Virus record (IMG/VR): IMGVR_UViG_3300032235_000653
Coordinates: 1 to 64,000 of that record
Strand: one strand, 5' to 3'
Length of the DNA: 64,000 bases
Origin: a virus
The translations under genes were made by a program, and so were the position numbers. The notes under the pieces are model-generated. The model was not told the origin of the DNA, did not search any database, and saw only the letters and a program-made list of their open reading frames with translations. How positions within the stretch are numbered: the first letter of the stretch is position 1; each line of letters starts with the position of its first letter. Below are positions 2 through 59,423 of the stretch, one piece after another.

Positions 2-1228
2 ATAGCTGATACAAAGGCTCCTGCCAAACGCACACCGCAACAAACTGACTATGCTCGACGCAGAGCACAAGAGAAAAAAACAGAGCAAGGTATGGCGGAA
101 GGCTTGCCGCAGACTCTACGCAAAGTTGTTCCTGGATATGCCAAGCGTGAAATAGATAAGAAGATGGATGCTGGAAAGTTTGGTAAGACTGATGCGGATA
201 AAGATGCCAACTTCCAACGCTATAAAAAGATTCAAGACAAGATTAAAGAAGGCGATAAAAAGCCCCATCCAAAGACTTGGCATGATGTTGATCCAAAGTT
301 AGGTAAACAAGTTGATAAAATGAGTCAGGCAGAAAAAGTTAAAAAAGGTTTAGCACATCCTGACACATTGAAGAAGAAAGGTGTGGCGGAAGGTCAAGCA
401 GACCAAGTTAAAAAGATTGTTAAGAAGAACGGTAAGCCCGTTGGCGAAATTGGCACAGATCCCGAAGCAAGTCCAGGCAATGGTAATTGGTATGTAAAAC
501 ACTATGCGTCAGGGTATGATGTAGTAGGTTTTGATAATGCAGAAGAAGCATTAGCAGAATTAAAACATTGTATGAAGCAAGGTGTGGCGGAAGGAGTTAC
601 ACGATCTTTTGATCTACAATTGATTGAAATTCTCAAACAGCGTGGCTTCAAAGGTCCAATGGCTGTAGGTCGAGCTAAAAAATGGATACCAGCCGTTAAA
701 GAGGTTGCCGCTAATGGAAATTTTTCTATCGGTGCCGATGATATTATGATGGTATCTGGCACAGACCCTGACTATGATCCATGGGTATTATATGTGCCTA
801 AAGTTGGCAAATATATCTACAATGAAGGAATGGCTTACAATCTACTTACTGCTAAACAGGTAGTAAAGTTTACAGTGCCCACAGATGATAAAGATTTTTA
901 TGAAGGTGTGGCAGAAGACGATTCAGCACTACAAGCGTTTTTAAGTAAAGGTGGAAAGATTCAACAACTGCCATATAAAAAACCTCGCAAAGCAGACAAA
1001 ACTGATTACGGCAGTAAACATATTGGCGGTAGCGGTGATAAAATGAAAGCCAGTCGTACTGGTACTGCTGCTAAAACACAGGGTAACAAGGTAGCAGGAA
1101 TGGCGGAAGAACAAGTTACTGAAACATCAGCAGGCAGTGTCGCTGGCGTAGTTAACCCTACTCCAAAGAACAAAGCCAAAGTTGGTACATTGTTTGGTGG
1201 CACATACAAACAGAAAAAATCCAAATGA
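2..1228 (+). CDS. Modular protein with repeated VAE-G junctions, 5' end cut by window
   Basis: The reading frame is open to the left edge, so the start lies outside the window and the ATG at 92 is probably internal. The protein is Lys/Gly-rich and built from blocks separated by near-identical junctions G-[VM]-A-E-[GDE], encoded near 89, 380, 580, 905 and 1100. One block (roughly 400-575) looks like a compact domain ending in a Glu/Ala helix; another (about 590-900) is a distinct globular block. The junctions resemble T4-type prohead protease sites (hydrophobic-X-Glu, cut after Glu). It overlaps the next gene by four bases (ATGA). By context it is a virion-internal or scaffold-like polyprotein; this is inference and no enzyme motif was recognised. 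Confidence 0.75.
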   Translation: MADTKAPAKRTPQQTDYARRRAQEKKTEQGMAEGLPQTLRKVVPGYAKREIDKKMDAGKFGKTDADKDANFQRYKKIQDKIKEGDKKPHPKTWHDVDPKLGKQVDKMSQAEKVKKGLAHPDTLKKKGVAEGQADQVKKIVKKNGKPVGEIGTDPEASPGNGNWYVKHYASGYDVVGFDNAEEALAELKHCMKQGVAEGVTRSFDLQLIEILKQRGFKGPMAVGRAKKWIPAVKEVAANGNFSIGADDIMMVSGTDPDYDPWVLYVPKVGKYIYNEGMAYNLLTAKQVVKFTVPTDDKDFYEGVAEDDSALQAFLSKGGKIQQLPYKKPRKADKTDYGSKHIGGSGDKMKASRTGTAAKTQGNKVAGMAEEQVTETSAGSVAGVVNPTPKNKAKVGTLFGGTYKQKKSK

Positions 1229-2607
1229 AAAGCCTGCGACAATTACTAGACAGCATCGATGGTGTATCGGAACAACGAACGGCAATGGATTCTGATCTAG
1301 CTAAGTATCGAGCGGGCTTAATATCTTTTAAAGATTTAAAAAAATCTGAAGAATTTAGACGCATGCCAATTGAAGACCGTTGGAAGCAGGGATTAATGTC
1401 AATGAACGATTTAACCCCCATGGACAAGTATCGACTGGGAATGATAAATCAGGATCAACTTGCTAGATCACAAGCTATAGAGCCAGTTTATCCGGAGTTG
1501 GCTGCGGCTGGCGCAGGCGGAGCAATAAGAGCAGGTTTAGGTTTATTAGGCAGAAAAGGTGCCGAAACTACGGCCAGACAAGCAGCTACTAAAGTAGAAC
1601 CTACATTTACTGCACCTGCAACACAAGCACCAAAACCAAGAATTGAACGCAGACCTGGCGAATCAGTATCAGATGCTATTAAAAGAGCACAAGCTGAAAA
1701 GGGGGGAGCAGTATCCACACCTCCGGCGGCCCAAGGGCCCGCCGTATGGCGTAATCCAAGAACTGGCGAAGTCGGCAGTACACCCCCCGGAGGCGGAGCT
1801 GGTGCTGGTGCTTCTTCTGGAACAAGAGTGTCGACTGCACCAAGTACACCCTCAGCACCAGCTAGACCAACAGCTCCTAGTTCTACTACCGGAGATAGAT
1901 TAAGACAAGGCCGACAAGAAAAAGTCAGTTCTGGGCGTACGGCCCAACAGGATTCAAAGGATCGTAAAAAAGCCCTCGCGGCCAGTTTGGCAGGCCATGC
2001 TGGATTGGCATACCTCTTAAGTCCCGACGATAAAGCAAAACCTGCAGGAGGAGGTGGCACAGATGGAACCGCTGGCAGTGGGCCACTGCCAGCGACAATA
2101 ATAGATGCTCCTCGAGATGGGGCTCCAGCATCAGCAGATGGACCTGGTAGGGATTCAAATATAAGATTGCCGCAAGTAAACATCGATACAAGTAACGTAC
2201 CTGCCCATCCAGAAAACGGAGGTCGGCCATCTATTAGAATTATACCGGTAGAACCAGCAGCACCAACAGCTCAGCCAGCAGCACCAACAGCTCAACCAGC
2301 AGCACCAACAGCTCAGCCAGCAGCTCAACCAGCAGCCCAACCTCCCAAAGTTGAACCTCCTAAAGCACCGGCAGCCCAACCAGTAGCACCTGCTAATGCG
2401 CCGTCTAGCGGTACAGGTGGTGGCCAAGGATCAGGCAGCGGAACTGGAACTGGAACTGGAACTGGATCAGGACAAGGCGATGATCGATTCGACCCAGTCG
2501 AATATTTAAAAAAACAAAAAGTACCAGGATATAAATTCAATGAAAGTCGCAGCACAAAAAAACTAATGCGAGAATTTAGTAGACATTTGAATAGGGTTTA
2601 TAAATGA
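1225..2607 (+). CDS. Ala/Pro/Gly-rich low-complexity phage protein with leader-like N-terminus
   Basis: 460 residues. It starts with a short amphipathic segment (MKSLRQLLDSIDGVSE) similar in style to the starts of the next two genes, followed by a charged helical region to about residue 85. A short Ala/Gly-rich hydrophobic stretch near residue 90 is followed by a long disordered region rich in Ala, Pro, Gly, Thr and Gln, including tandem PAAPTAQ and GT repeats. The C-terminal 25 residues are basic. It overlaps both neighbours by four bases, so it is translated with them. It is probably a virion-associated or internal protein; the function is unknown. Confidence 0.7.
   Translation: MKSLRQLLDSIDGVSEQRTAMDSDLAKYRAGLISFKDLKKSEEFRRMPIEDRWKQGLMSMNDLTPMDKYRLGMINQDQLARSQAIEPVYPELAAAGAGGAIRAGLGLLGRKGAETTARQAATKVEPTFTAPATQAPKPRIERRPGESVSDAIKRAQAEKGGAVSTPPAAQGPAVWRNPRTGEVGSTPPGGGAGAGASSGTRVSTAPSTPSAPARPTAPSSTTGDRLRQGRQEKVSSGRTAQQDSKDRKKALAASLAGHAGLAYLLSPDDKAKPAGGGGTDGTAGSGPLPATIIDAPRDGAPASADGPGRDSNIRLPQVNIDTSNVPAHPENGGRPSIRIIPVEPAAPTAQPAAPTAQPAAPTAQPAAQPAAQPPKVEPPKAPAAQPVAPANAPSSGTGGGQGSGSGTGTGTGTGSGQGDDRFDPVEYLKKQKVPGYKFNESRSTKKLMREFSRHLNRVYK
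2254..2340 (+). repeat. Tandem 21-bp repeat encoding PAAPTAQ
   Basis: Three near-perfect copies of a 21-base unit (2254-2274, 2275-2295, 2296-2316), then two shortened 12-base units to 2340. They keep the reading frame and code for Pro/Ala/Gln-rich linker sequence. Copy number is likely to vary between relatives. Confidence 0.9.
2441..2464 (+). repeat. Hexanucleotide repeat gaactg x4 encoding Gly-Thr
   Basis: Four perfect copies of gaactg in frame, coding for an alternating Gly-Thr tract in the flexible C-terminal half of the low-complexity protein. Confidence 0.9.
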
Positions 2608-5039
2608 GCGATATCAAAAAATTATTAGAAACAATGGATCGCATGTCTACCGTAGAGCGTAAACCCTCAGGCCCAAAATTTCCTGGCTATTGGAAAGGTA
2701 CGGATCCTGCCAGCAAAGCCAAAGATAAAATGGTGGGCGGCTGCGAAGAAAGCATAATTAAGGATTTGAATAAAATATCTAAAGAAAAAGTCACCGAATG
2801 GCAACTGCAAGAAAAATTTGATAAATTTAAAGAACAGCAAAGTTATACTGGTATAGATCCCACTGTTCGTCAACGTATGGGTATGCCGGCGGCCACAGCA
2901 GATGAGATAAGATCTTACATTGAAAAAAATCCACCGGCAATAAAAGCAGGGGACGGATATCTTACAACTAACACCGGCGTAGGACTTGACCCCAATAAAC
3001 CAGTTGTTCCTGAACCTGTTCTATCTGGTGGTCAATTGGATGTTATTCGTGCAGCAGCTAATGCTGCCGGAATAGGCCCTGACAAAAAAGTTGATTTAAC
3101 CTCTACGCCATCTGCAGTCCCAACAGCAGCAGCACCACCACCAATTAGTAGAAATGCTCCAGTAGGTAGTGCAGCTTTAGATCCTACATTAAATCCAGAC
3201 TCGGCAACTAGTATCCCCGGCGGTCAGAGCGCAGGCGGTGCAGGCGTAGTACCTACAAAATCAATATCTTCAATACCAATCAGATCGCGAAACCCTACGG
3301 CAGGCAGCTGGCAAGATATTTGGAAAAATAATCCTAACATTAAAAATCCTAATTTAATTTATCCAGGACAAGAAATTAAATTACCTAACGGAACATCCGC
3401 TATTGTCGACAAAGGTGATACTTTAAGCAGCATTGCTGATAGATATAAACAAGGCGGTTATAATACTGGAACAGAAGTCGGCCCAAGTAATACCAGTCCC
3501 GCACCTGCTACAACTAGAGCTCCGGCAACTGCACCTGCTGCTAGATCGGCACCTGCTGCATCAAGGCCGCAACCAAGAGCAGTACCGCCAACAAGTTTTG
3601 ATCCGCCCGGGCCTGACACTGACACTAGTGATCGACCAGTACCTGCGGTTAGGAATCAGCCTGCTGCTCCTGCCAATGCTGCAACACCCAGAACAGCGCA
3701 CACCCCAGGCACTCGTGTAACTACTCAAATCAGAGATCCGCAGGATCCTAATAAGCCTTTAAGTATTCAACTAAAGAAAGGCGATGATGGCAGTTGGTAC
3801 GATGATCGTGGCCGCAAACTTAATTTTAATAAACCTGGTGATTTAGAGAAATTGGAAAATTTACCAGCAGATGCTCCCACGTTTATGGATAAAATGAAAA
3901 GAGTGCTGGGAGGTGAACTACCGTCTAGGGCATTTGGACAACCTAAGCCTCAGCAAAATCAACCAGCACCGGCAACACAGCCGCCGGCCAGGCCTGCAAC
4001 TCAACCAGCAGCTCCAAGGTCTAATTCATCATCTTCAAAAACTGATCAGTCAGGCATGGCATCCTATGCAACAAAAGGTGGTAGAGTTTATGCAGCCGAC
4101 TTTAACAATCCCAGTGGGCTAGGCTGGGATGGCAAAGGAAAGTATACCAGTTATAAAACTCCCGAAGAAGGTGTTAATGCTACCAAAGATTTAGTTTCGC
4201 GATACTTAACTGATCGAACTCCATACATTAAAGGACCTGCCACTCCGGAACAAGTAGTCAGTACATGGGTAACTGGAGGCAAAACACCAGCTGATAAAAT
4301 TCAAGGCGGCAGATACCTTCAATCAGTTAAAGACGAGCTAGCGGCAGCTGGTGTTAAATTAGATGCTAAAGGAAGAATACCACATTCACAGGCTGCAACT
4401 GATGCTATTACAAGAGCCATCGTTCGTCACGAAACTTCTCCTAAGCACATGGAAAAGTTTGCACCTTTTCTAACTGCGCCAAAAGATGGAAAAGGGTCAA
4501 TTGAGGAATCAAACAAAGAAGATGAAAAAATTGCAGGGCGCTATGATCCTGATGAATTTGATCTTATGGTTAAACGATTAGGTCAAAGAGCTCGAGAACA
4601 AGATCGTAAGCATGGACCTGTTGATATTGCTGCACTGGCAAAAAGATTACGTGCAATAGAAAAACGTGAACAGACCAAAGAACAAGAAGATCCTGCTGTG
4701 AATATGCAGGATCCTGATGTACAAAGAACTAGTCAAACCAGTCCACAACAAGATCCTGCAGCAGTTAGACAACAACAGCTAGATCAAACGGTTGATCTAG
4801 CCACTGCTAAAGGCACTATGAGTGGATTAAAAACAGCATTAGGACCTGACGTAGATACAAATGCATTGGCCAGTGCTGTTACGAAAATAAGCGACGGCAA
4901 ACCTTTGACAGGCCCCGAATCGACGTCAATGAGTGCTCTTACACCTTTGATAAGTAAAGCAGCAGAGACTCCACAAACTGCCATGGCACTTAAAACAGCA
5001 TTGAGTAATGCTGGTATGTTGGCCAAGCAAGGAAAGTAA
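2604..5039 (+). CDS. Large LysM-containing protein with muramidase-like region
   Basis: 811 residues. The N-terminus (MSDIKKLLETMDRMSTVE) again looks like a capsid-targeting leader. Residues about 225-285 contain LysM-like sequence: a W-x-x-I-W-x-N-N-P-x-I segment, then YPGQEIKLPNG, then GDTLSSIADRYKQGG, as in peptidoglycan-binding LysM domains. After Pro/Ala linkers, a globular region at about 480-630 (SGMASYATKGGRVYAADFNN onward, with conserved W, Y and G positions) resembles phage structural peptidoglycan-degrading domains, though I cannot assign a fold. The C-terminus is charged, then Gln/Asp-rich. It likely acts on or binds cell wall during entry or assembly. The LysM part is fairly clear; the lytic part is a suggestion. 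Confidence 0.65.
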   Translation: MSDIKKLLETMDRMSTVERKPSGPKFPGYWKGTDPASKAKDKMVGGCEESIIKDLNKISKEKVTEWQLQEKFDKFKEQQSYTGIDPTVRQRMGMPAATADEIRSYIEKNPPAIKAGDGYLTTNTGVGLDPNKPVVPEPVLSGGQLDVIRAAANAAGIGPDKKVDLTSTPSAVPTAAAPPPISRNAPVGSAALDPTLNPDSATSIPGGQSAGGAGVVPTKSISSIPIRSRNPTAGSWQDIWKNNPNIKNPNLIYPGQEIKLPNGTSAIVDKGDTLSSIADRYKQGGYNTGTEVGPSNTSPAPATTRAPATAPAARSAPAASRPQPRAVPPTSFDPPGPDTDTSDRPVPAVRNQPAAPANAATPRTAHTPGTRVTTQIRDPQDPNKPLSIQLKKGDDGSWYDDRGRKLNFNKPGDLEKLENLPADAPTFMDKMKRVLGGELPSRAFGQPKPQQNQPAPATQPPARPATQPAAPRSNSSSSKTDQSGMASYATKGGRVYAADFNNPSGLGWDGKGKYTSYKTPEEGVNATKDLVSRYLTDRTPYIKGPATPEQVVSTWVTGGKTPADKIQGGRYLQSVKDELAAAGVKLDAKGRIPHSQAATDAITRAIVRHETSPKHMEKFAPFLTAPKDGKGSIEESNKEDEKIAGRYDPDEFDLMVKRLGQRAREQDRKHGPVDIAALAKRLRAIEKREQTKEQEDPAVNMQDPDVQRTSQTSPQQDPAAVRQQQLDQTVDLATAKGTMSGLKTALGPDVDTNALASAVTKISDGKPLTGPESTSMSALTPLISKAAETPQTAMALKTALSNAGMLAKQGK

Positions 5040-5041
5040 TT

Positions 5042-7120
5042 ATGAATTTGTTTGATATGTTTGAATCTGGAAAAAAGCAAGACATAGAAGAAGCTTGCTG
5101 GAAAGGCTACCACAAAGAGGGTATGAAGACTATGTTTGGGAAACGCTATCCCAACTGTGTTAAGAACAAAAACGAAAGTCTAGAAACCTATGTCAACAAA
5201 GGTGAGTGTCCAGGCTGTGGCGGTGCTATGGTGTCCGAAGAACAGATCAACGAAAAACAAGATGCTTGCTATCATAAAGTAAAATCAAGATATAAAGTAT
5301 GGCCCAGTGCTTATGCCAGTGGAGCACTAGTGCAGTGTCGCAAAAAAGGTGCTGCTAATTGGGGTAACAAAAATGAAAGTATTACTCAAGAAGAATACGA
5401 TCAACTGGATGAAAATTTAAAACAATGGTTCAGTGATAAGTGGGTTCGATTTGGTCCTGACGGTAAGATTCGTGGGGATTGTGCCAGAGGTGATAGCAGT
5501 GAAGGTAAACCAAAATGCTTGCCACAGAGCAAAGCACACGCTTTAGGCAAAAAAGGTCGAGCCAGTGCTGCCGCACGTAAACGTAGAGAAGATCCTAATC
5601 CAGAACGTAGTGGCAAGGCCATTAATGTTGCCACTAAGAAAAAGAGTAATGAAGGTATGGCGGAAGGCTCTTTGGCAGAAATGGACAAAAGTGCTCCACA
5701 GCCTGGTCGTGATGGTAACGTTAGCCATAAAACTTACGGCAGTCGTGACAACTACAAACTAGGTGACCCAGAAAGAACGGGAAAGCAAATATCTGCAAAA
5801 AAAGCCAAAAAAGATGCACTTGACATTTTGAAGAAGCAAGGTGTGGCGGAAGAAAGAAATAAACAAGGCTATCATACCAGAGTACAAAAAGGCAAGTTCT
5901 TGCCTAGCAAATACGGTGAAGATCAATATAACTACTTACATGACCTAATGAACTCAAGTTATGATGGCGAAGGTCCAGTTTTGGTAACCATTGATGATAA
6001 AAAGATTGCTAGAGAAATTGCTGCCATGTACGGTGGAGATGTAGAACAAACTGGACTAGGAACATATCGTATCGTTCAAAGAAAAGGCGCTGCGCCAATT
6101 GGTAACAAGACTCCTGAACTAACTGGTGTGGCGGAAGGATTTGATGATGTTGTTAAGGGCGTAAAGCGTTTGGTAAAAGGTAAACCATCTAAGGGCGATG
6201 TTGCTATGAAACACACACTCAAAGCTTTAGGAGCAGCACAAGCTGGTGATATGAAAACAGCAGGCAAAGAAGCTACAAGATGGGAAAAAGTACAGAACTT
6301 GCCTAAGAAAGATGTGGCGGAAAGCTCGAACAAAAAACAAGAAGCAACACGCAGAATACAGAAAATGTTAAATGATAAGTTCGGTGCCAATTTAGATGTC
6401 GACGGAGTATTAGGACCACTTACACTTAAATCTATCAATAAATTTATGCCCAACGCAAAAGTCGGACCAGCGGAAGATCCAAATAAAACTACTGCTGTAC
6501 AGGGCAAAAAAGTTAAAAACGAAGACACAGATCAGAATCAATTAGCAGAAAAATGGAGTCAAAAATACAAAAGCAGTATTAATTGCAGTGACCCAAAAGG
6601 GTTTAGTCAGCGTGCTCATTGTGACGGAAAAAAGAAAAATGAAGACGTGGCTGAAACAGCAGAATATAACTATAACTATAGCAATATCAATGACGATGAC
6701 TGGTATGAATTTGATTCTGAAGGCAATGTAGTAAGACAATCTGGACCAAGAAGATACGAACTTCCTTTTGGTTCTAACAAAACAATTAAGTTACCTAATG
6801 GAAATATTGCAGCCAAAGGAATGACTGCTAAACGTTTAAAATTGTTTAAAAATCTGTCAGAAAGCCGGGAATATTATAATGTTACCAGCACTGACTCTAC
6901 ATCTTTACGCCAAGATTTTAACATGTCTAAAGATCGCTTCGGATGGTATCTCAGTGAAGGATCTACTCCAAAACATAAACTAGACGCATACAGAGCATTC
7001 GGTAGTCCCAAATTAAAAGAATACGATCTATCTGCATTCAGTGGTGGTACGCAGACCAAAGGTGAAGATAACGTTATTAGTCCTGTCGGATCTCAAACTA
7101 AATCGCAATACAAAAAATGA
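5042..7120 (+). CDS. Multi-module Cys-containing polyprotein with repeated VAE junctions
   Basis: 692 residues made of short modules. These are a CWKGY...PNC module (about 19-43), a CPGCGG motif, a CYHKVKSRYKVWPSAYASG module (about 77-110), a WFSDKWVRFGPDG...CARG...KCLPQ module with a basic tail (about 128-200), an alpha/beta block, a peptidoglycan-binding-like module (about 435-480: a D-G-x-x-G-P-x-T pattern) and a second short Cys module near residue 515. Between modules sit V-A-E junctions at about 5656, 5842, 6127, 6314 and 6645 (MAEG, VAEE, VAEG, VAES, VAET). Modules of this type recur in T4-like marine phages, where their role is unknown. It starts with a leader-like segment (MNLFDMFESGKKQ) two bases after the previous stop. 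Confidence 0.7.
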   Translation: MNLFDMFESGKKQDIEEACWKGYHKEGMKTMFGKRYPNCVKNKNESLETYVNKGECPGCGGAMVSEEQINEKQDACYHKVKSRYKVWPSAYASGALVQCRKKGAANWGNKNESITQEEYDQLDENLKQWFSDKWVRFGPDGKIRGDCARGDSSEGKPKCLPQSKAHALGKKGRASAAARKRREDPNPERSGKAINVATKKKSNEGMAEGSLAEMDKSAPQPGRDGNVSHKTYGSRDNYKLGDPERTGKQISAKKAKKDALDILKKQGVAEERNKQGYHTRVQKGKFLPSKYGEDQYNYLHDLMNSSYDGEGPVLVTIDDKKIAREIAAMYGGDVEQTGLGTYRIVQRKGAAPIGNKTPELTGVAEGFDDVVKGVKRLVKGKPSKGDVAMKHTLKALGAAQAGDMKTAGKEATRWEKVQNLPKKDVAESSNKKQEATRRIQKMLNDKFGANLDVDGVLGPLTLKSINKFMPNAKVGPAEDPNKTTAVQGKKVKNEDTDQNQLAEKWSQKYKSSINCSDPKGFSQRAHCDGKKKNEDVAETAEYNYNYSNINDDDWYEFDSEGNVVRQSGPRRYELPFGSNKTIKLPNGNIAAKGMTAKRLKLFKNLSESREYYNVTSTDSTSLRQDFNMSKDRFGWYLSEGSTPKHKLDAYRAFGSPKLKEYDLSAFSGGTQTKGEDNVISPVGSQTKSQYKK

Positions 7121-7545
7121 GAAATTTAATTAATATTATGGAATCAGCTAGCAAAGGATGTCCTATTGCCACGCACGACATCGATGTTAATTTAAAAAAC
7201 AGACAGGCTGCTATAGATAACTACAATTATGGGCCAGCCAATCCTGATAAGCCCGGCGATTATTGGGATAAGTCTGCTAAAATTTTTAATGTAACTACAG
7301 CTACAGCAAAAACTATGACCTGTGGCAATTGTGCAGCATTTGATGTCAGTGATAGCATGAGACAATGTATGTCGGACGGTATTAAAGGCACAGAAAAAAA
7401 TATAGATGCAAATGCCAGTATCAATTTAGCTGATTTGGGTTACTGTAATTTTTTACATTTTAAATGTGCGGGCAGCAGAAGTTGTAAAGCTTGGGTCACT
7501 GGTGGTCCTATAACAGAAAAAGACAAAGGAAAAAAGGCAGATTAA
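7117..7545 (+). CDS. Small cysteine-rich protein, possible metal or Fe-S binder
   Basis: 142 residues with a leader-like start (MRNLINIMES) and a four-base overlap with the upstream gene. The C-terminal half has clustered cysteines: TCGNC (about 68-71), a Cys near 89, YCNFLHFKC and GSRSCKAW near 110-130. The order CxxC ... C ... C ... C ... C is typical of a small metal- or cluster-binding fold, but I do not recognise the family with certainty. It sits between the modular virion-like proteins and Dps, so it may be an internal or virion protein. Confidence 0.6.
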   Translation: MRNLINIMESASKGCPIATHDIDVNLKNRQAAIDNYNYGPANPDKPGDYWDKSAKIFNVTTATAKTMTCGNCAAFDVSDSMRQCMSDGIKGTEKNIDANASINLADLGYCNFLHFKCAGSRSCKAWVTGGPITEKDKGKKAD

Positions 7546-7546
7546 T

Positions 7547-7981
7547 ATGGATGAATTAATTAAAGCAATGAAGATAGCGTTTGCTACAGAGTTTAGTTTT
7601 TACCTAAAAGCACATTTCTATCACTGGAATGTAGAAGGACCGGACTTTCAAGAATATCACAGTTTATTCGGCGGTATCTACGAAGAAGTATATGGCAGCA
7701 TTGATGCATTTGCGGAAAACATTCGCAAGTTAGGCAGCTATACTCCAGGTAGCTATACTCGTTTTAGTATGCTATCACAGGTCAATGATGAAATTGAAGT
7801 ACAACCTGCTATGACTATGATTCAAGAATTGTTATCAGACAGCGATAAAACTGCCAAGTTATTTAAAATGGTCTACGATCTAGCAGAACGTGAAGGAAAA
7901 CATGGCATCAGTAACTTCCTAGCAGAACGCATGGACGCACATGATAAACACAGCTGGATGTTAAGAGCCAGTTTAAAATAA
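7547..7981 (+). CDS. dps: Dps-like ferritin (DNA-protecting iron-storage protein)
   Basis: 144 residues, slightly short for Dps. The ferroxidase signature is complete in spacing: H26-W-N-V-x-G, H38, D53 and E57 match the H...H...D...E pattern of Dps proteins (first His to second His 12 residues, then 15 to Asp and 4 to Glu). Dps proteins form dodecamers that oxidise and store iron and bind or shield DNA. The protein lacks a long basic N-terminal tail, so DNA binding is uncertain. It follows the Cys-rich gene by one base and precedes the desaturase. A phage copy could protect DNA from oxidative damage in the cell or be carried in the virion; that is inference. Confidence 0.9.
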   Translation: MDELIKAMKIAFATEFSFYLKAHFYHWNVEGPDFQEYHSLFGGIYEEVYGSIDAFAENIRKLGSYTPGSYTRFSMLSQVNDEIEVQPAMTMIQELLSDSDKTAKLFKMVYDLAEREGKHGISNFLAERMDAHDKHSWMLRASLK

Positions 7982-7986
7982 GCTCA

Positions 7987-8694
7987 ATGGCTGAATTTTT
8001 ATACCTTCTTATAGCAACCCATATTACCATAGTATGTGTTACTGTTTTTTTACATCGAGGACAAGCACATCGAGGATTAACTTTTAGTCCTGTGCTAAGT
8101 CATTTAATGAGATTCTGGTTATGGTTAACCACAGGCATGGTAACCAAGCAATGGGTGGCCATACATCGCAAGCATCACAAAGACACAGATGTAAAAGGCG
8201 ATCCTCATAGTCCATATATATTTGGAATTATCCCCGTGTTGTTTGGTGGAGCATTCTTATATCATCAAGCCAGTAAAGACAGTGTTATGGTAAATCAATT
8301 TGGTGTAGGAACGCCCGATGATTGGTTAGAAAAAAATGTCTATGCTAAACACAGTCGTTTAGGTGTTAGTTTGTTATTGGCTATAAATTTACTATTTTTT
8401 TCCTGGTGGGGATTGTTAATCTGGGCAATACAAATGATTTGGATACCTTTTTGGGCAGCAGGTGTTGTCAACGGACTTGGGCACTGGTGGGGTTACCGCA
8501 ACGGTAATTCCAAAGATCGCAGTACTAACATTAGTCCAATAGGGGTTATCATTGGTGGCGAAGAGCTTCACAATAATCATCATTTAGAACCTGGAAATCC
8601 TAAATTAAGTCGTCGTTGGTTTGAAGTTGACATGGGTTGGGTATGGATACAAATTTTTAAATTTACAGGTTTATTAAAAATAAGGGCACTGTAA
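7987..8694 (+). CDS. Membrane fatty-acid (delta-9 acyl) desaturase
   Basis: 235 residues with the three His boxes of acyl desaturases: HRGQAHR (23-29), HRKHH (60-64) and HNNHH near residue 198. Hydrophobic segments flank the boxes, as expected for a di-iron membrane enzyme that puts double bonds into acyl chains. The usual length is about 250-300, so this is a compact but apparently complete member. Marine T4-like phages are known to carry such genes, presumably to tune host membrane fluidity. Its stop overlaps the next start (ATG at 8694). Confidence 0.93.
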   Translation: MAEFLYLLIATHITIVCVTVFLHRGQAHRGLTFSPVLSHLMRFWLWLTTGMVTKQWVAIHRKHHKDTDVKGDPHSPYIFGIIPVLFGGAFLYHQASKDSVMVNQFGVGTPDDWLEKNVYAKHSRLGVSLLLAINLLFFSWWGLLIWAIQMIWIPFWAAGVVNGLGHWWGYRNGNSKDRSTNISPIGVIIGGEELHNNHHLEPGNPKLSRRWFEVDMGWVWIQIFKFTGLLKIRAL

Positions 8695-51846: not shown

Positions 51847-52947
51847 CTATTTATTGATCAAACTACTACTATAATCATAGCCAGGTTTTAATCGTTCAAT
51901 TTGTTGCTGGTAATAATCTTTGTCTGTCCATGTATAAGGATACACAGATTGCAAAATATTTTCCGACCCATCGTCGCATTGTATAGCATAAATGTCCAGA
52001 TATTTTGACAATATAGGCCACACTTCGCTATAGTTGGTTGTGCCAAAGCTTGTTTGTAGATCAACTTTACCAACTGGATGATATCCAAAATTATATTCAG
52101 GATTTTCTGGGTCAAAACCGTTTCTGACTAGCCATGGACGAAAGCCAGACATTACGTTATCGTACCATGGCGCCATACCGTTGTAGCAAATATCTTGTGC
52201 CCATTCGATATCAAATTCACCACTATAATAACGTAAATGGGTTATAGCTTCACAGACTGCTTTATCGATGTCTATGCCATTTTCATCTTTGAATACTTCG
52301 AATAGAGTTTTACCAATTTGAGACCAATGCAAATAAACTTCTCCAAATTTTCTATCATATCTTTTTTCATCGAAAGTTGTTTTGTATTCTGCAGGAAATT
52401 CATATCTTTGTGCATTTAAAAATGTGGTAATTTGACTGGGTCTAACCCACTCGGGTGCGGTTATTTTTTTACGCTGACTGAGCACCAGACTTTCTGCTTC
52501 GTGACACAGATTATTCAATTGTCTGATTGCAAACTTTGTTGTATAATCAGCTCTTTTATAATAGTCACTGAGTCCCCAAACCGTGCCTTGCAATATTTCA
52601 AAATGATTATGAAGTTTATTCATCAAATCATGATCGAGTTTTAAGGTATGGGAATCTCTGAGTGTGTCTGGCAGAAATACTTCTTTAATCTGATATTCTT
52701 CGCCGAAGAAACTGTTTATTTTGTTTACTGCCCACGCCAGCTCAGAACAAATAAATTGCAAATTTCGTTGACTGTCCGGAAATCCTAAAAAACAAAAATT
52801 CTTTTCTAGATACTTGTTTTGTCTTAATAAGTCTTGCAAGGCCACAAACCATTTCTGTGCCATGTTATGGTCATATACGTCGATTATATAATCTAGTGTA
52901 TCTGATTTAATCAACGGGTTACGCAGTGTTACTATTACTTTATTCAA
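51847..52947 (-). CDS. Unknown protein directly downstream of the radical SAM array
   Basis: 366 residues, soluble, helical, with aromatic-rich regions. No cysteine motif or known domain is visible. Segments such as KFGEVYLHWSQIGKTLFEVF and ICYNGMAPWYDNVMSGFRPW near 205-275 look conserved in style (Trp/Tyr/Asn-rich), with an N-terminal MNKVIVTLRNPLIKSD strand. It overlaps the first radical SAM gene by eight bases, so it may be the partner or substrate of these enzymes; this is inference. Confidence 0.6.
   Translation of the reverse strand: MNKVIVTLRNPLIKSDTLDYIIDVYDHNMAQKWFVALQDLLRQNKYLEKNFCFLGFPDSQRNLQFICSELAWAVNKINSFFGEEYQIKEVFLPDTLRDSHTLKLDHDLMNKLHNHFEILQGTVWGLSDYYKRADYTTKFAIRQLNNLCHEAESLVLSQRKKITAPEWVRPSQITTFLNAQRYEFPAEYKTTFDEKRYDRKFGEVYLHWSQIGKTLFEVFKDENGIDIDKAVCEAITHLRYYSGEFDIEWAQDICYNGMAPWYDNVMSGFRPWLVRNGFDPENPEYNFGYHPVGKVDLQTSFGTTNYSEVWPILSKYLDIYAIQCDDGSENILQSVYPYTWTDKDYYQQQIERLKPGYDYSSSLINK
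51848..51855 (-). promoter_or_regulatory. T4-like late promoter candidate (AATAAATA)
   Basis: Minus-strand AATAAATA overlapping the end of the 366-residue gene and 16 bases before the ATG of the 33-residue gene. It could drive the small gene and the carbamoyltransferase late in infection. Confidence 0.4.
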
Positions 52948-54229
52948 TCGAATTCCACCATTCTAATACTTCAGGTTTTGTTGAAAGTATATCACGCATA
53001 GTATAACTATCATTTCGAATTTGTTCAAGTCTTTCGATTCTTGCTTTTCCTTTACGCAAGCCAATTTGATAGTCATCGGGCCACTGTTCTGCAAATGTAG
53101 GTCTAGTTTTTAGCTGGGCAAGGATATCCTTTAAGGCGCCGCCTACTACGGGTACGAGTTCATCTATCCATGGATCTAATAGATTCCTGGGCAGTGATAA
53201 AGGTGACATAACTATGTCCGGACTAAAACTAAAAATTACTTTCGCGAGAATATCGACTTTTTCTTCTTCTGCAAGTCGCTGGATATTAATAACTTCGAAC
53301 ATGCCGGGCAAAGTGAGCGTAAAGTCAATTCGCATTTGACGTCGGTGACTAGCGATTTTAGTTCCTTGGCGGAAGTTCTCAAGCCATTCATTGTAGTTGA
53401 GACCTGTTCTAATGTATTCGCCAATCGGGCCTGTGCCGTCGATGCTTGCACAAATCTGCCAATCACGAAGCCTGTTGAGAATATCACTATAAAGATTAAT
53501 GCCTTTATAATTAATTCTTGATAAATTAGTGTTATACCTAGCATAGACATTTGGGCCATCTCCTAACTCTATTATTCTTTTCATGTAGCGCCAATGTTGT
53601 TCGTACATTAAAGGTTCGCCACCAACCCAATATACTTCTTCAACTCGATGCTCTTCGACAGCTTGGCTAAATTCTGCTTCGACTTGATTATCTTGAAATT
53701 GTTCAATTTGTTTTTTGATGTCAGGTTGCATCCAATTATTCTTTGGATCTGACCAATTGATCATGTTGTGCTGACGTTGTTCACTTTCCCATGAACTACT
53801 TAACATGTCTCCACACATTCGACATTTAAAATTACAAAGATTACTAAATCTGTAATCCCAACTCACAGGCTTCATATCTGTTGAGCCGTCGGGCTGTGTC
53901 TTTTCCATTGCCTCATTGTACTTATGGCCAAATAACTGATTAAAATAGCTACGGTAAACGCTGGTGTTTAGTAATTTGTCATTGCATACTTCACACTCAG
54001 GCAAAGTTTCCCCTGCCATCATGCGACGACGAACAGACTTCATATGCTCGCCATTCCAGTGCTCGTCTAAAGTGACAGGTATATACTTTCCTGTACCTGC
54101 ACTAGTATCAATATACTGTTGAAAATTTTGTGCAGGTTCTCGACTCGCGCAACACATCCTGCGTTCTGTTTGCGGACTTAGATATGTATGTGTCCATGGA
54201 GCCATGCACAGTGTCGCAGGTTTAGTCAT
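52940..54229 (-). CDS. Radical SAM enzyme with N-terminal twitch-like Cys region (array member 1)
   Basis: 429 residues. The N-terminal region has CMAPWTHTYLSP (C8), MCCASRE (C26, C27) and PECEVCNDK (C79, C82), the pattern of a twitch auxiliary-cluster domain placed before the core. The core site is NLCNFKCRMCG (C132, C136, C139), with VGGEPLMYEQHW as the GGE motif. Closest in layout to the proteins at 55373 and 56575 (double-Cys type). Probably binds two Fe-S clusters and uses SAM to generate a radical. The substrate is unknown. Confidence 0.92.
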   Translation of the reverse strand: MTKPATLCMAPWTHTYLSPQTERRMCCASREPAQNFQQYIDTSAGTGKYIPVTLDEHWNGEHMKSVRRRMMAGETLPECEVCNDKLLNTSVYRSYFNQLFGHKYNEAMEKTQPDGSTDMKPVSWDYRFSNLCNFKCRMCGDMLSSSWESEQRQHNMINWSDPKNNWMQPDIKKQIEQFQDNQVEAEFSQAVEEHRVEEVYWVGGEPLMYEQHWRYMKRIIELGDGPNVYARYNTNLSRINYKGINLYSDILNRLRDWQICASIDGTGPIGEYIRTGLNYNEWLENFRQGTKIASHRRQMRIDFTLTLPGMFEVINIQRLAEEEKVDILAKVIFSFSPDIVMSPLSLPRNLLDPWIDELVPVVGGALKDILAQLKTRPTFAEQWPDDYQIGLRKGKARIERLEQIRNDSYTMRDILSTKPEVLEWWNSIE

Positions 54230-55358
54230 TTAAATCATTGACCCAGTAATTTTTAATTATGATATCATCTTCTAGTATTTCAGGCTGTCTTAATACGTCT
54301 AAGAATTCTTTATATTGTGGATGATTCTTATCGCTAACATTTCTTTCTTGAAATTCTTGTTGCGACCATGTATCCCAGTTCCACATTTTTCCTATTCTAA
54401 TAATATCAAACCCAAGCTGCTTGGATATCTGTACATAATCGGAAATTTCTTTGTAGTTATTTAACTGAGCAACAAAGTCTGCAGACACTTGAGTTTTAAA
54501 ATTATATTTTTTAATTAAATCAATTACCCAAGCGCAATTTTCTAATAGAGTTTGCCAGTTTCCGTTTACCCTGTTTTTCTCATATGTTTGTGCTGTTCCA
54601 GCATCAAAACTAATTCTTAATTCAGTTATGTACGGCAAAAACTCTATTAACAAATCTTCTTTCTTTTTTAAATAACTACCATTGGTCTGAATAATATTCT
54701 TAATAAATTTGTTTTTCGACTTGGCAATATATTCCCACAGCTCAACATATGCTTTGCTAATAAAGGGCTCGCCGCCTGCCCATCTAATTTGTGTGGGTGT
54801 CGAAATATTATCTATTAACAGCGTTTTAATTTTTTCGACTATTTTCTTATTAGTACTTGCCATCGGTCCTGTATTATTATTAACAAGATCGGTACGACAA
54901 GAAGGACATACAAAATTACAAGTATAGTCAAAATCAAAAATAATTTCTTTGGGTATTTTTTTTACTTTTGCTTTCTCTGTAAAGCTAACAGAATCCAGTA
55001 ACACAAACTCCGTAGTGTCAGACGCAGAATTAAATTCTGTCTTATCTAACTGATTAAAAAACATCCCGCATATATTTGAATTACAATACGAATATCGGTT
55101 ATTTAAAATTTCAGTTCTAATAGACATTGCCTCATGAGAATTCAACAAATCGTAAACATTATCATAATCTAAGATACTGCCAATGGACTTTGGTAACCAT
55201 GCAGGACTCAAACAAATATAACTTTCTCCAAATTGATTTACTACTAATGTTTCCCAAGGATAATTACATCTTCTAATAGATTTAACTTTTTTATCAAATA
55301 AAATTTGATTATTATTTTTTCTTTGATAATAGTCGGAAAACAAAATTACTCGTTCCAT
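54222..55358 (-). CDS. Radical SAM enzyme, divergent array member 2
   Basis: 378 residues. Cysteines C31 (RRCNYPWETLVV), C49 (YICLSP), C92 and C97 (YCNSNIC) occupy the N-terminal twitch positions but with altered spacing and only a single Cys at the second site. The core site is YTCNFVCPSCR (C147, C151, C154); the GGE motif is WAGGEPFISK. More AT-rich and more Asn/Lys-rich than its neighbours, so it may have a separate history. It overlaps member 1 by eight bases. Confidence 0.9.
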   Translation of the reverse strand: MERVILFSDYYQRKNNNQILFDKKVKSIRRCNYPWETLVVNQFGESYICLSPAWLPKSIGSILDYDNVYDLLNSHEAMSIRTEILNNRYSYCNSNICGMFFNQLDKTEFNSASDTTEFVLLDSVSFTEKAKVKKIPKEIIFDFDYTCNFVCPSCRTDLVNNNTGPMASTNKKIVEKIKTLLIDNISTPTQIRWAGGEPFISKAYVELWEYIAKSKNKFIKNIIQTNGSYLKKKEDLLIEFLPYITELRISFDAGTAQTYEKNRVNGNWQTLLENCAWVIDLIKKYNFKTQVSADFVAQLNNYKEISDYVQISKQLGFDIIRIGKMWNWDTWSQQEFQERNVSDKNHPQYKEFLDVLRQPEILEDDIIIKNYWVNDLND

Positions 55359-55372
55359 CGATACTCCATAAA

Positions 55373-56578
55373 TTAATTGTAACCCATTGCTTTGGCTATT
55401 TCTGGATGAGTATCCATAAAGTTTTGTTTTCGATATGTATCTGTGCGCTTCATATTGTTTAAAAATACTTGCCCATCGCTGCCTGCACCATTTTCAATAA
55501 ATTTAATTACATTCTCAATTTCTTGATGATGTTCCTTTGTATTCCAAAAAGTTGTTTTGAGTTTATTTAAAACTAATTCTCTGGCTGCGGGCGTTAATTG
55601 CTGAATACTCATATGATCAGGGCTGTGCAACATATTAAAATAAATGCTGTCAAAAGGTTTAGTGCTTGCCCATGCCAGTAATTCATCTAAGTAATATACA
55701 TTTTGAATATTAATAGTGAAACAAAGTTGAGTAGTAATGTTAGGCGTGTCAACATCCCGTGCAAAATGAACTCCGTCGATTATTTCATTGGCTTTATCCC
55801 AGTCTGCACCGTATCGTTCATATTCAAATCTTACGCCAACATTGTCGATACTGAATGCAATATCTACACGGCCAAAATGATTCCATAAAGCTGATTTTTG
55901 TATGCCCAACCCGTTAATAGTTGCATTGGTGTTATAATGAATATCAATGTGTTTACTATGACCTGTAGCTACTGCATATCGCAGTAGCTCCCAATGTTCT
56001 TCGATTAACCAAGGCTCACCTCCGGTAAATTCAAAATACTTAATATTGGGCAGCAATGATTTTAAATTCTCCCAAAAATCAGGACTTTCCTCTGGCCATT
56101 TACCTTGTTTAAGCCAAGTATATGCAACATGTTTTTTCTTATCATATCCTTGCGGCAAATACTCCAATTCTTCTGCCGCCCACTTACTACTGCTCCAGCT
56201 GCCGCATATCCTGCACTTTAAATTACAAATGTTGCCCAGCTTTAAATCAATGAACCACAATTGATCAGGTACATCGTTTTGCCAATCAACCAATGGGTAT
56301 AACTCTTTGAGTCTGACTTGACTGTGAATACGTTTACTAGTCCTGTTTGCTGCTTCTTCATCCCAGCATAATTTACAGGTATTTGGTTTTTCGCCGCGGC
56401 GGAATTGTCTACGTAAGTTTTGCATATACTCGCTGGTATATGCATCTTGTAATGTATGTCTTCTAAGATCAATACTGGTAATATCTTCTCTTGCAAGACA
56501 ACAAGGTCTTGCGGTGCCCATTGGACTGGCTTCTATACTAATCCATGGCAACATACAAATACTATTAGGTAGTGTCAT
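55373..56578 (-). CDS. Radical SAM enzyme with N-terminal twitch region (array member 3)
   Basis: 401 residues. N-terminal region ICMLPWISIEASPMGTARPC (C8 to C26, then C27) and NTCKLCWDEEA (C68, C71); core NICNLKCRICGSWSSSKW (C118, C122, C125); GGE motif in FTGGEPWLIEEHW. It lies in the double-Cys subgroup. A 14-base gap separates it from member 2. The C-terminus carries no SPASM-like Cys cluster, so the auxiliary cluster must be at the N-terminus. Confidence 0.92.
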   Translation of the reverse strand: MTLPNSICMLPWISIEASPMGTARPCCLAREDITSIDLRRHTLQDAYTSEYMQNLRRQFRRGEKPNTCKLCWDEEAANRTSKRIHSQVRLKELYPLVDWQNDVPDQLWFIDLKLGNICNLKCRICGSWSSSKWAAEELEYLPQGYDKKKHVAYTWLKQGKWPEESPDFWENLKSLLPNIKYFEFTGGEPWLIEEHWELLRYAVATGHSKHIDIHYNTNATINGLGIQKSALWNHFGRVDIAFSIDNVGVRFEYERYGADWDKANEIIDGVHFARDVDTPNITTQLCFTINIQNVYYLDELLAWASTKPFDSIYFNMLHSPDHMSIQQLTPAARELVLNKLKTTFWNTKEHHQEIENVIKFIENGAGSDGQVFLNNMKRTDTYRKQNFMDTHPEIAKAMGYN

Positions 56579-57912
56579 TTATTTTTTAACTCGCTTAATT
56601 CAGGAAATGTATTCCAAAAGTTTTCTCCCCTAAGATTATCAATTAAATTAATTTCTTGTTTAAATTTATCCCAGTGCTGTGAGCCGTCAGTGGACATTAG
56701 GAAATTAATGACGCTCTTGAATCCGGTGGTTGCTCGTTTCAATGAGTCTTGAGGTTCTAACCATTCTATGTGTTGTTCATACGCAGGCTTAATTACACGT
56801 TCTTTAAATTCTTGTGGGAATATATCAATCCTATACCACTCAGGACTTTGGCAAATATTCACATTAAAATCCTTGGGTTTAATAAACCCCATGTCGACCC
56901 ATTCTTTATGAAAATCTAAGACGTGTAATACATTCATGGAACTAATAGTGCTGGCGATATAAAAATCTACATGCGGCACTTCTTCTAACATACGTTCACG
57001 ATTACGAACTGTTTGTTTCCAGTCTGTGCCTTTTCTCATTAATTCTGCTCTAGTACCGCTGGCATCCAGGCTGGCGCCTACCCCCACTGTTCTAAAATGT
57101 TTCCAATACTCGAATACGTGTTTATCTTTGAATGCTAATTCGCTAAAGTTTGTATTGTACTGAATGCATACGTCTGTTCGGCCTGCTTCAATAAGTTTTT
57201 CTAATAGATAATAGTGTTCCTTCATAATCAAAGGTTCACCGCCTGCAAAATAAACTTGTTCCAAGTAGGGAATATGTTCTTCCATTTGTGCAATCATATA
57301 ATCTTCGTCGCCGGCAGCATATTCAATTCTGGCCAAATCTTTGCCATTTACGTCAGGTACTCTATTGAATAATTTGACATGATCATTATACCAGTTACTG
57401 CTAAAAACAGGACCGCACGTTCTGCAACGAAAATTACACAGATTACTAAATCTAACGTCCCAATATCTAATCTTAAATTCTGGATGTGTTCCGTCTGGCA
57501 GTGTTTTATCTACGTCTGCAATGTTATGTCCGTAACTACGATTAGCATCATAGCGCATACTAAAGAATCCGTTTTCTTCCTGTTCGTAACATTTGGTACA
57601 TTGTTTGACTGGCTGATCTGCCATCATCAATCGTCTAATTTCTTTATAGCCTTCTTGATTCCACACTTCTTGCATTGAGTTCTTTTTTAAATTCCCAATT
57701 GGATGAAAATATTCTGCAAGGCAACAAGGATATACCCTGCCGTCCGGATAAGCATGTTGGTGAACCCATGGCAACATACAAAAAGATTTACTGTTCGTTA
57801 ATCTGTTGATTTGAGTTTCTGTTAGTGTTTCAGAATCTGCAAATAATGGTTTCCTACTATTGTAATCGTAACCACGTTTATAAAATCTATCAGTTTTTTT
57901 ATCTTCGCTCAT
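56575..57912 (-). CDS. Radical SAM enzyme with N-terminal twitch region (array member 4)
   Basis: 445 residues with a 40-residue charged N-terminal extension. FCMLPWVHQHAYPDGRVYPC (C45 to C63, then C64), QCTKCYEQEENG (C105, C108), core SNLCNFRCRTCGPVFSSNW (C159, C163, C166), GGE in FAGGEPLIMKEHY. The best match in the array to the usual C-x-x-P-W-x-H ... P-C-C form. It overlaps members 3 and 5 by four bases each, a strong sign of one operon. Confidence 0.93.
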   Translation of the reverse strand: MSEDKKTDRFYKRGYDYNSRKPLFADSETLTETQINRLTNSKSFCMLPWVHQHAYPDGRVYPCCLAEYFHPIGNLKKNSMQEVWNQEGYKEIRRLMMADQPVKQCTKCYEQEENGFFSMRYDANRSYGHNIADVDKTLPDGTHPEFKIRYWDVRFSNLCNFRCRTCGPVFSSNWYNDHVKLFNRVPDVNGKDLARIEYAAGDEDYMIAQMEEHIPYLEQVYFAGGEPLIMKEHYYLLEKLIEAGRTDVCIQYNTNFSELAFKDKHVFEYWKHFRTVGVGASLDASGTRAELMRKGTDWKQTVRNRERMLEEVPHVDFYIASTISSMNVLHVLDFHKEWVDMGFIKPKDFNVNICQSPEWYRIDIFPQEFKERVIKPAYEQHIEWLEPQDSLKRATTGFKSVINFLMSTDGSQHWDKFKQEINLIDNLRGENFWNTFPELSELKNK

Positions 57913-59258
57913 AGTGTACTATACCAATCTGCTAAAGCAGGAAATGTTTTACAGAAGTCTTTACCTCTGCGCTGATCGTACTGTGTATAAAATTGTTTGA
58001 AATCACTGCGTAATTTAGATAGTTCAAATGCATCGCTGTGTGGAGTTTTTACAACATCCAAGTAATCTACTAATCGTTGTAAATGATTTATTTCATGTTC
58101 GTGTAAATAGTTATTCCCTTTATGTCGAACAAGAAAATTAACTAATTGATCTTTATATTTTGATTTAATGTCATCAGGCAGCACTAATGGGCTTTGAAAA
58201 CTAGGAAAACGTAAAATATTTAAAGTAAAATTAGGATAATCTCGGCCGAATTCTTTCTTTAAGTCTACTAAAGTATCTAAGAAATCAGGCAATGTGTCCA
58301 GACATAATGCATTAATTGTACACATCACATGCAGTCCGCGAAACTTTTTACTTTTTGCAAGCTTTATAACATTTTCTAACCACAAAGTATAATTTAACCC
58401 ATCTCGTATATATTCTGCTTGAACATGATCGCTTTCGTTGCTGGTATATAAATCCATTTCTAAACCATCTATGCTATCAATCAATCTGTCGATATCAACT
58501 TGATAACCTAAATTACTATTAATGGCTAAACGGGTTTGGCTTTTGCCTTTGTTAGATTTAAACCAATCAATTAGCTTCCAAGTCTCTGCACTCATTAATG
58601 GTTCCCCGCCAGTGATTCGCAATTCTTTAAGAGTTCTATGTAAGTCGCTTTCCCACCATTTGTGAAATGCTTCTGCATACGGATTAGTTTCGCCAAATTT
58701 ATATAATTGACTGCTGTCGTGCGTATGAGTAAAATGATTTCTGCCGTCACTGACAAGATTGGTATAAGGCCCGTTACGCTTTATATCATTTACCCAGGTA
58801 CTACTGAACGCAGGATTGCAGTAACTACAAGCAAACTGACAAGTACGATCAAACGCAATTTCGAGAGTTTTGAGATCAAAATCTTCTCGGGCAGGTGTTC
58901 TGTATGCATATGCCAAGTCTTCATCATTGTAAATTACAGTTTTGTATACACGATCACTTACTGCATCTCGGCCCATGTCTTCGATCTTCCAGCAATACTC
59001 ACAACCAGATGGACGCTCACCTTTTTGCATTTGTTCGCGTTCCATCTTTTTCTTTTGAGTATTGTGTAATGCCTTGGGATTTCGTTCGACATCATCGATA
59101 TCTACTTTGTGCGGCAAAGGATGGTGGCAACTAGTAGTCATTCCGCTACCTAACCATATAGTAGCATTATACCACTTAGCTCCGCAAAAAGATTTCGATT
59201 TAATATCGATTACTCTGCGTTTGTAATCTAAATCTGTTTCATTGTTTATTCTTGGCAT
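57909..59258 (-). CDS. Radical SAM enzyme, S-C-x-H-P subtype (array member 5)
   Basis: 449 residues. The N-terminal Cys region differs from the double-Cys group: SFCGAKWYNATIWLGSG (C25), TSCHHPLPHKVD (C44 with a following His-Pro), then ALHNTQKKK and GCEYCW (C86, C89). Core: RTCQFACSYCNPAFSSTW (C140, C144, C147). GGE is RITGGEPLMSAETW. The same SC-x-HP, HK-x-D and ALHNT elements are found in member 7, so these two are close paralogs. Confidence 0.92.
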   Translation of the reverse strand: MPRINNETDLDYKRRVIDIKSKSFCGAKWYNATIWLGSGMTTSCHHPLPHKVDIDDVERNPKALHNTQKKKMEREQMQKGERPSGCEYCWKIEDMGRDAVSDRVYKTVIYNDEDLAYAYRTPAREDFDLKTLEIAFDRTCQFACSYCNPAFSSTWVNDIKRNGPYTNLVSDGRNHFTHTHDSSQLYKFGETNPYAEAFHKWWESDLHRTLKELRITGGEPLMSAETWKLIDWFKSNKGKSQTRLAINSNLGYQVDIDRLIDSIDGLEMDLYTSNESDHVQAEYIRDGLNYTLWLENVIKLAKSKKFRGLHVMCTINALCLDTLPDFLDTLVDLKKEFGRDYPNFTLNILRFPSFQSPLVLPDDIKSKYKDQLVNFLVRHKGNNYLHEHEINHLQRLVDYLDVVKTPHSDAFELSKLRSDFKQFYTQYDQRRGKDFCKTFPALADWYSTL

Positions 59259-59319
59259 AGTTGTTAAATTTAGTTATAAAATCATTTATTAGTTGTTTAT
59301 GGGCGGGTGTGAATGTCAT
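59239..59319 (-). CDS. Candidate 26-residue ORF between radical SAM genes
   Basis: ATG at 59319-59317 overlapping the stop of the next-listed 35-residue ORF (ATGA), stop at 59241-59239 inside the start of array member 5 in another frame. Codes for MTFTPAHKQLINDFITKFNN plus six residues. The tight coupling is suggestive, but it is very short and could be chance. Confidence 0.3.
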   Translation of the reverse strand: MTFTPAHKQLINDFITKFNNYAKNKQ

Positions 59320-59423
59320 TGCATTCTCACTATATCATGCTCTATTATTTCGAAATAATCAGGATACCAATTAAAGAATTCTAAATCATTGTCTTTTAAC
59401 GAGTTAATTTTAATCTTTTGCAT
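59316..59423 (-). CDS. Candidate 35-residue ORF between radical SAM genes
   Basis: ATG at 59423-59421 within the last codons of array member 6, TGA at 59318-59316. Codes for MQKIKINSLKDNDLEFFNWY and 15 more acidic/aromatic residues. This is the only gap in the array, and it is filled by two chained tiny frames. No leader motif of a known peptide family was recognised, and no strong ribosome site is visible. Confidence 0.35.
   Translation of the reverse strand: MQKIKINSLKDNDLEFFNWYPDYFEIIEHDIVRMQ

Follow-up and report, generated by a model that had tools for sequence, protein, structure and literature searches.

Introduction

The internal proteins of bacteriophage T4 and the polyvalent proteins of phages are the known systems closest to the pair of genes described here, which lie at the beginning of the linear 99,766-bp record IMGVR_UViG_3300032235_000653 of the IMG/VR database. 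The window analyzed is the first 64 kb of this contig. The two genes encode polyproteins in which successive modules are separated by a repeated V/M-A-E junction, and the new element is that the DNA of the shared cut site would itself be the exchange point of polyprotein cassettes.

The T4 proteins IPI, IPII, IPIII and Alt resemble the present proteins in their N-terminal peptide, which is some 10 residues long and has hydrophobic-x-E at its end, in the class of cleavage site, and in a repertoire that varies between related phages and includes ADP-ribosyltransferase (ART) enzymes (PMC9026906). The T4 prohead protease gp21 cuts after L/I-X-E (PMC9026906). In their sequences both IPII and IPIII start MKTYQEFIAE/A, and are cut at FIAE/A. 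Targeting of IPIII depends on residues 4 and 7, and its processing on residues 8 and 10. In T4, however, there is one cut for each separate internal-protein gene, whereas here many modules share a chain with up to eight G[VM]AE sites, and only here does the DNA of the cut site form a conserved cassette boundary.

Polyvalent proteins, which Iyer et al. (2017) liken to polyproteins, are multidomain combinations of virion-delivered effectors, including ART and GNAT domains (PMC5512222), as the present chains may be. They contain embedded peptidases or remain uncut, and they have no common junction word, in contrast to the repeated prohead-protease-like site and conserved DNA word found here. In those of the present polyproteins that were scanned, Pfam revealed neither a peptidase domain nor the restriction-linked signature domains of that class. 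A further likeness is to integron cassette arrays and the R64 shufflon, where short repeated DNA lies between exchangeable segments. Here the segments are in-frame parts of an open reading frame (ORF) and the repeats are direct, and a non-exhaustive search of neighbouring genes revealed no integrase or invertase.

Cleavage after Glu, in S/A-X-E motifs, together with many packaged and ejected proteins, is known for the giant phages phiKZ and SPN3US; the excerpted text of PMC5694885 describes propeptides cut from single proteins and contains no shuffled multi-cassette chains. Agrobacterium phage Atu_ph07 has a tandem set, gp53–gp63, most of which start M[KR]W[EHQD]QL[TN]E. These lie within coding sequences 31–76, a cluster that as a whole contributes 29 proteins detected in virions by mass spectrometry (PMC6102473). 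They differ from the present proteins in being separate genes without VAE chains. The gp53–gp63 genes (locus L209, 24485-35593) mostly encode proteins of about 255 amino acids with near-identical N-termini, followed in most by a YRGM or YRGI motif that by eye looks like that of an ADP-ribosyltransferase; two of the proteins were scanned and had no Pfam match. A search of open-licence papers found no description of cassette arrays of the kind reported here.

Two polyproteins with repeated junctions

The two polyproteins and their junctions are as follows.

2..1228, + strand: polyprotein A, 408 amino acids, its 5′ end cut off at the contig edge; G[VM]AE at five junctions, giving five bounded or partly bounded modules and a C-terminal tail
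92..100, + strand: junction M-A-E/G, polyprotein A
383..391, + strand: junction V-A-E/G, polyprotein A; exact DNA word GGTGTGGCGGAAGG at 380-393
584..592, + strand: junction V-A-E/G, polyprotein A; exact DNA word GGTGTGGCGGAAGG at 581-594
908..916, + strand: junction V-A-E/D, polyprotein A
1100..1108, + strand: junction M-A-E/E, polyprotein A
5042..7120, + strand: polyprotein B, complete, 692 amino acids; five [VM]AE junctions; the N-terminus MNLFDMFE/SG (cut mark before SG) resembles a capsid-targeting peptide
5657..5665, + strand: junction M-A-E/G, polyprotein B
5843..5851, + strand: junction V-A-E/E, polyprotein B
6128..6136, + strand: junction V-A-E/G, polyprotein B; exact DNA word at 6125-6138
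6314..6322, + strand: junction V-A-E/S, polyprotein B; edge of similarity to loci L003 and L005
6647..6655, + strand: junction V-A-E/T, polyprotein B; an 'empty site' relative to L005

In polyprotein A the [VM]AE sequence occurs at residues 31, 128, 195, 303 and 367, preceded in all five cases by G, and in polyprotein B at residues 206, 268, 363, 425 and 536. A preliminary description of this DNA had claimed at least ten such junctions in the two ORFs with conserved DNA around them, and both observations are borne out. There are ten junctions, five per ORF, and not one of 20,000 residue shuffles of each protein reached five (means 0.21 for A and 0.25 for B). At the DNA level the + strand of the contig contains four copies of GGTGTGGCGGAAG and two of GGTATGGCGGAAG, always inside these two ORFs, and the other strand contains neither. 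G[VM]AE is found in no other of the 106 ORFs of the contig, and the two ORFs in between (1225-2607 and 2604-5039) have no VAE sites. Most modules of the window are without a Pfam match, the exception being a DUF5872 stretch in polyprotein B, which also holds a weak peptidoglycan-binding-like stretch. The predicted structure of the whole polyprotein B chain was uninformative, with a predicted local distance difference test (pLDDT) score of 34.5, and PADLOC gave no match.

Related polyproteins and the clade of the phage

How general are such polyproteins? Protein-based scans of IMG/VR yielded 54 loci, and a scan for the exact 17-mer CAAGGTGTGGCGGAAGG at least 187 distinct contexts among the matches listed, to which the following counts also refer. 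The two kinds of scan provide at least 167 non-redundant polyproteins from 143 loci. Three or more G[VM]AE sites are present in 66 of the 167, the maximum being eight. Cutting all of them at their junctions gives 684 pieces, of which 350 have a junction on both sides (median 76 amino acids); these internal modules fall into 233 families, 182 of them singletons. The neighbours of one and the same module vary between phages, and the order of modules differs in the IMG/VR relatives. GNAT, dCMP deaminase, NT5C, DUF5872, DUF6321 and DUF6934 were all found within polyproteins, and most modules have no known domain. Among isolated phages polyprotein A has no match, and polyprotein B matches cyanophages in its N-terminal conserved stretches only; VAE chains are absent from the cyanophage proteins examined.

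In DNA polymerase sequence the window falls together with 13 of the remaining tested records, at 57–78% identity. These include two of jumbo size (400 and 352 kb) and one 262-kb record, and every member of the clade is a metagenome assembly. Three T4-like metagenomic records and two cyanophages form outgroups at ~30% identity, while three more records that carry the junction word have no polymerase match and hence cannot be placed in this way. All 16 records outside the outgroups contain the word GGTGTGGCGGAAGG and the five outgroups lack it; the reversed word, used as a control, is absent from every record tested. In most records the word itself lies roughly 4–12 kb upstream of the polymerase gene. 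The isolates nearest by polymerase are Sinorhizobium phage Phosso (52%) and Agrobacterium phage Atu_ph07 (47%), in both of which fibre-like proteins occur near the polymerase instead of polyproteins.

Conservation of the junction DNA

The junction is conserved well beyond its protein sequence. When loci are selected on protein similarity alone, GTG encodes the junction valine in 93% of cases compared with 18% in the rest of those ORFs, and GCG encodes the junction alanine in 87% compared with 7%. Val-Ala is written GTGGCG at 78 of 93 GVAE sites in these polyproteins, but at only 9 of 76 VAE sequences in other ORFs. The conservation runs from about CAA to just after GG(C), and falls to background beyond. 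Between homologous modules the codon identity of conserved residues is 0.67–0.76, while at their junction it is 0.96–0.98. The junction is therefore kept as DNA among otherwise unrelated modules. Such conservation far exceeds what a protease site would need, and marks the exchange of cassettes between phages. In all 187 distinct contexts of the 17-mer, among the matches listed, the longest open frame is that encoding QGVAEG. An origin of the junction in cellular genomes was rejected: 257 Gb of bacterial and archaeal sequence contains a 19-base form as 10 isolated matches, none of them within a multi-site ORF.

A second repeated motif, GSLNEFAPG, is found at many loci (e.g. L007 8449-13743 and L020 5029-9525), often straight after VAE as VAE/GSLNE/FAPG, and is possibly a second cut site. 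The LNEFAP motif has no DNA conservation comparable to that of the VAE junction, and the effect at the DNA level is consequently specific to VAE.

Cassette exchange, gain and loss

Where the protein-selected loci are compared, similarity begins at a junction in both sequences in 84 of 220 cases (left edges) and ends at one in 87 of 216 (right edges); the corresponding value for random pairs of positions is ~0.13%. Fifty-eight shared segments have a junction on both sides in both phages, and 22 of these are at least 90% identical and five at least 95%. Cassettes that are 93–100% identical in otherwise diverged phages stop exactly at the junction. The window provides one example.

378..594, + strand: a 217-bp cassette that includes its two junctions, at which the alignment edges lie; L020 and L021 contain it at 100% identity

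Despite this identity the DNA polymerase regions of L020 and L021 are only 67 and 70% identical to that of the window. The cassette (392-592) is predicted to form a domain of four strands and a helix (pLDDT 77.5), without a match in the PDB, and its final disordered residues are those of the junction. In polyprotein B, near relatives of the window also diverge at junctions. L003 (88%) and L005 (95%) match the window from the junction at 6314 onward, and everything upstream differs. At the next junction, 6647, L005 carries ~80 extra codons exactly between the E and the T, with flanks of ~95% identity.

In comparisons of near-identical phages, single cassettes are found on one side and missing from the other. 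A stretch of 537 nt that L007, L013 and L014 share is absent from L017, with flanks of 99% identity and a junction overlap of 20 bp. L025 differs from L027 and L029 by 294 nt, with flanks of 95.8% and, over 9.2 kb, 99.9% identity and an overlap of 16 bp. L037 and L055 differ by 348 and 252 nt, and L145 and L182 by 318 nt, with overlaps of 17–20 bp. All these differences are multiples of three. In L174 a cassette that is single in L026 is present in two tandem copies. Gain and loss of cassettes and the tandem copy, as read from these alignments, are the outcome that would be expected of recombination between short direct repeats.

Could the 17–20 bp word rather be a dedicated site for a site-specific enzyme, such as a recombinase or homing-type nuclease, with its coding of V-A-E secondary? 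The sharpness of the similarity edges and the conservation of synonymous positions far beyond codon usage are in keeping with this, as are GIY-YIG endonuclease genes of SegE type on the contig. Yet the word is non-palindromic, tolerates variants (GGTATGGCGGAAG, GTAGCG) and stands always in one frame among the matches listed, and overlaps of 16–20 bp are what short direct repeats would leave on recombining. The locus has no candidate enzyme linked to it, and a search of window neighbours that was not exhaustive found no recombinase. On balance we regard a dedicated site as unlikely.

Putative head targeting, protease and putative capsid cleavage site

Across the group many proteins begin with a targeting-like peptide that ends in hydrophobic-x-E in the manner of the T4 internal proteins, polyprotein B of the window having MNLFDMFE/SG. 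In the contigs that bear polyproteins the N-terminal pattern M[KR]x(2-3)[DE]F[ILV]x(1-2)E is found in 81 of 1,891 ORFs where 0.14 are expected, and at an inner Met in just 1 of 10,354 cases. The consensus of the 81 is MRA(T/K/S)EFI(T)E, with no residue preference after the Glu. A looser form of the pattern is present in 47 of the 117 polyproteins with a complete N-terminus, compared with 2.2 after shuffling. The N-terminus of polyprotein A lies beyond the contig edge, and so outside this comparison.

There are also runs of separate genes in which every N-terminus is a T4-like targeting peptide, MRAxEFIxE or a variant of it, as in L038 15601-20393, L194 3366-11173, L167, L176, L177 and L010. 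A neighbour gene at L189 5755-6141 starts MRAREFIAE and matches the Pfam family ART-PolyVal (ADP-ribosyltransferase). These runs have the look of an enlarged reserve of candidate head-packaged effectors in addition to the polyproteins.

The preliminary description read the junctions as sites of a prohead protease. A gp21-type protease is encoded in six related metagenomic records, three of them (G005, G006 and G007) in the clade of the window, with DNA polymerases 61–65% identical to its own. All three also encode a Gp23-type major capsid protein (MCP), and its N-terminal region reads YLAE/TASAG in G005, LLAE/SSAG in G006 and HLAE/SATAG in G007 at the position of T4 FLTE/AEIG. The MCP alignment is gapped near the T4 cleavage position, so that LAE/S or LAE/T is a putative cut site; it is of the same kind as the T4 gp21 class. 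A capsid cleavage site of a different type was thus not found in these phages, the nearest in which this can be checked. Prohead-protease cutting is well supported, by inference, from the class of site, the protease of the clade, the LAE sequence of its MCP and the targeting-like N-termini. The earlier reading is thus supported in part, and it was incomplete in one respect, the role of the junction DNA in exchange having been missed.

Alternatively, the VAE repeats might be plain linkers within an intact multidomain polyvalent protein that is packaged and ejected uncut, with the DNA identity arising from domain shuffling. Polyvalent proteins join 2–15 domains, and some, such as the N4 vRNAP, are packaged unprocessed (PMC5512222). 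Moreover, the gene with a targeting peptide noted above matches ART-PolyVal, and cleavage is here something that we infer. A linker would need no protease site, however. The junction nonetheless fits the cleavage class of T4, with A-E at P2-P1 as in the MCP of the clade; and nothing is conserved beyond the hydrophobic-x-E that closes the N-terminal targeting-like peptides, just as in the T4 internal proteins. We think uncut linkers improbable, slightly more so than a dedicated recombination site.

A proposed explanation and its difficulties

We consider it probable that these genes encode head-targeted internal-protein polyproteins of a myovirus of the T4 superfamily, and that the DNA of the cleavage site doubles as the exchange point of effector cassettes. 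The explanation starts from what the sequences contain, that is the repeated junctions and the conservation of their DNA, the exchange edges, the presence and absence of cassettes, the targeting motif, and the protease and LAE site of the clade. By analogy with T4, a short N-terminal peptide would bring the chain into the prohead. There a gp21-type protease would cut after the Glu of each V/M-A-E, freeing the modules, which would then be packaged alongside the DNA and, once ejected, act on the host. Lastly, the 17–20 bp of junction DNA would pair between phages or between copies, so moving cassettes in frame; here the outcome is observed, and the pairing is proposed. The modules would be independent, since one in-frame cut site sets the limits of each. 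Given this independence and the shared homology of 17–20 bp, cassettes could be gained, lost, duplicated and swapped in frame without disturbing their neighbours. The cutting and the pairing would thus reinforce each other, because a module that is separately released can be exchanged without harm to those beside it.

Several points weigh against this explanation. The junctions have V or M where the gp21 class has L or I at P3, and the protease, MCP and portal of the window's own phage were not found on the contig. Cleavage of the proteins of this clade, and their presence in virions, are deduced from sequence. Only five of the 58 doubly bounded segments reach 95% identity, and the total includes related pairs from one family, each counted separately. 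The L004/L005 insertion has no shared 17-mer overlap, and therefore not every change fits short homology. Finally, since all the loci are metagenome assemblies, assembly joins could account for some breakpoints; the 9.2-kb flank of 99.9% identity and the recurrence across samples argue against this.

Taken to its extreme, the last point would make the whole pattern an artefact in which identical cassettes within one sample give rise to chimeric contigs resembling exchange. Several loci do end at a cassette, where assemblers break (L021, for example, begins at a junction). But the word and modules recur in many independent samples, the single-cassette differences have long near-identical flanks on both sides, and chimeric assembly would not produce in-frame codon conservation, making this a very improbable account. 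Least probable of all is that the word acts as an internal translation start or other RNA signal providing separate proteins without proteolysis; GGAAGG is purine-rich like a ribosome-binding site, but an internal start is rejected because in-frame ATG, GTG or TTG at codons 2–6 after the junction occurs in 35, 22, 12, 13 and 9 of 402 cases, near the background of 5.2% per codon with only the first slightly raised.

Returning to the polyproteins as cut and exchanged chains, a stronger version can be advanced tentatively. The junction word may be under selection as DNA, as a recombination point (possibly site-specific) shared by the clade for a common pool of effectors, in addition to being a maturation cut. 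If so, this dual-purpose word would constitute a phage-borne system of cassette exchange unlike integrons or shufflons.

Exchange at a constant cut site and its DNA, with swapped contents, could explain how large phages renew the proteins that they inject as infection begins. On this account there should be hundreds of small candidate effectors, namely the 350 internal modules (143 loci, 233 families) among the matches listed, most without a known domain. Each predicted module is precisely bounded, opening a large uncharted protein space to direct testing. The combination of MRAxEFIxE at the N-terminus and QGVAEG between modules would further offer a signature for candidate head-packaged proteins in uncultivated phages.

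Neighbouring genes

Three ORFs adjoin the polyproteins.

1225..2607, + strand: ORF without VAE sites; N-terminus MKSLRQLLDSIDGVSE followed by Q, a putative targeting peptide
2604..5039, + strand: ORF without VAE sites; two LysM stretches, possibly a lytic enzyme
7117..7545, + strand: small ORF with the N-terminus MRNLINIME/SAS, which resembles a targeting peptide; adjoins polyprotein B and is kept in L003-L005

Beside polyprotein B, at 7547-8694, the window has a ferritin-like (Dps-type) gene and a fatty-acid desaturase gene. Further along, on the - strand at 52940-62856, several adjoining ORFs begin with motifs of the CMAPW, CMLPW or CPAKW type, and are possibly a tandem group of radical-SAM-like phage proteins.

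Elsewhere on the contig, genes for an SMC/RecF-type ATPase and a calcineurin-like phosphoesterase are adjacent, and from their position and length are probably gp46 and gp47. The ORF directly after the SMC-like ATPase gene, at 96480-98237 of the contig (L002 15480-17234), has an N-terminal radical SAM domain and a C-terminal match to short-chain dehydrogenases. Nearby, at 98275-98709 (L002 17275-17706), lies a gene for a SegE-type GIY-YIG homing endonuclease.

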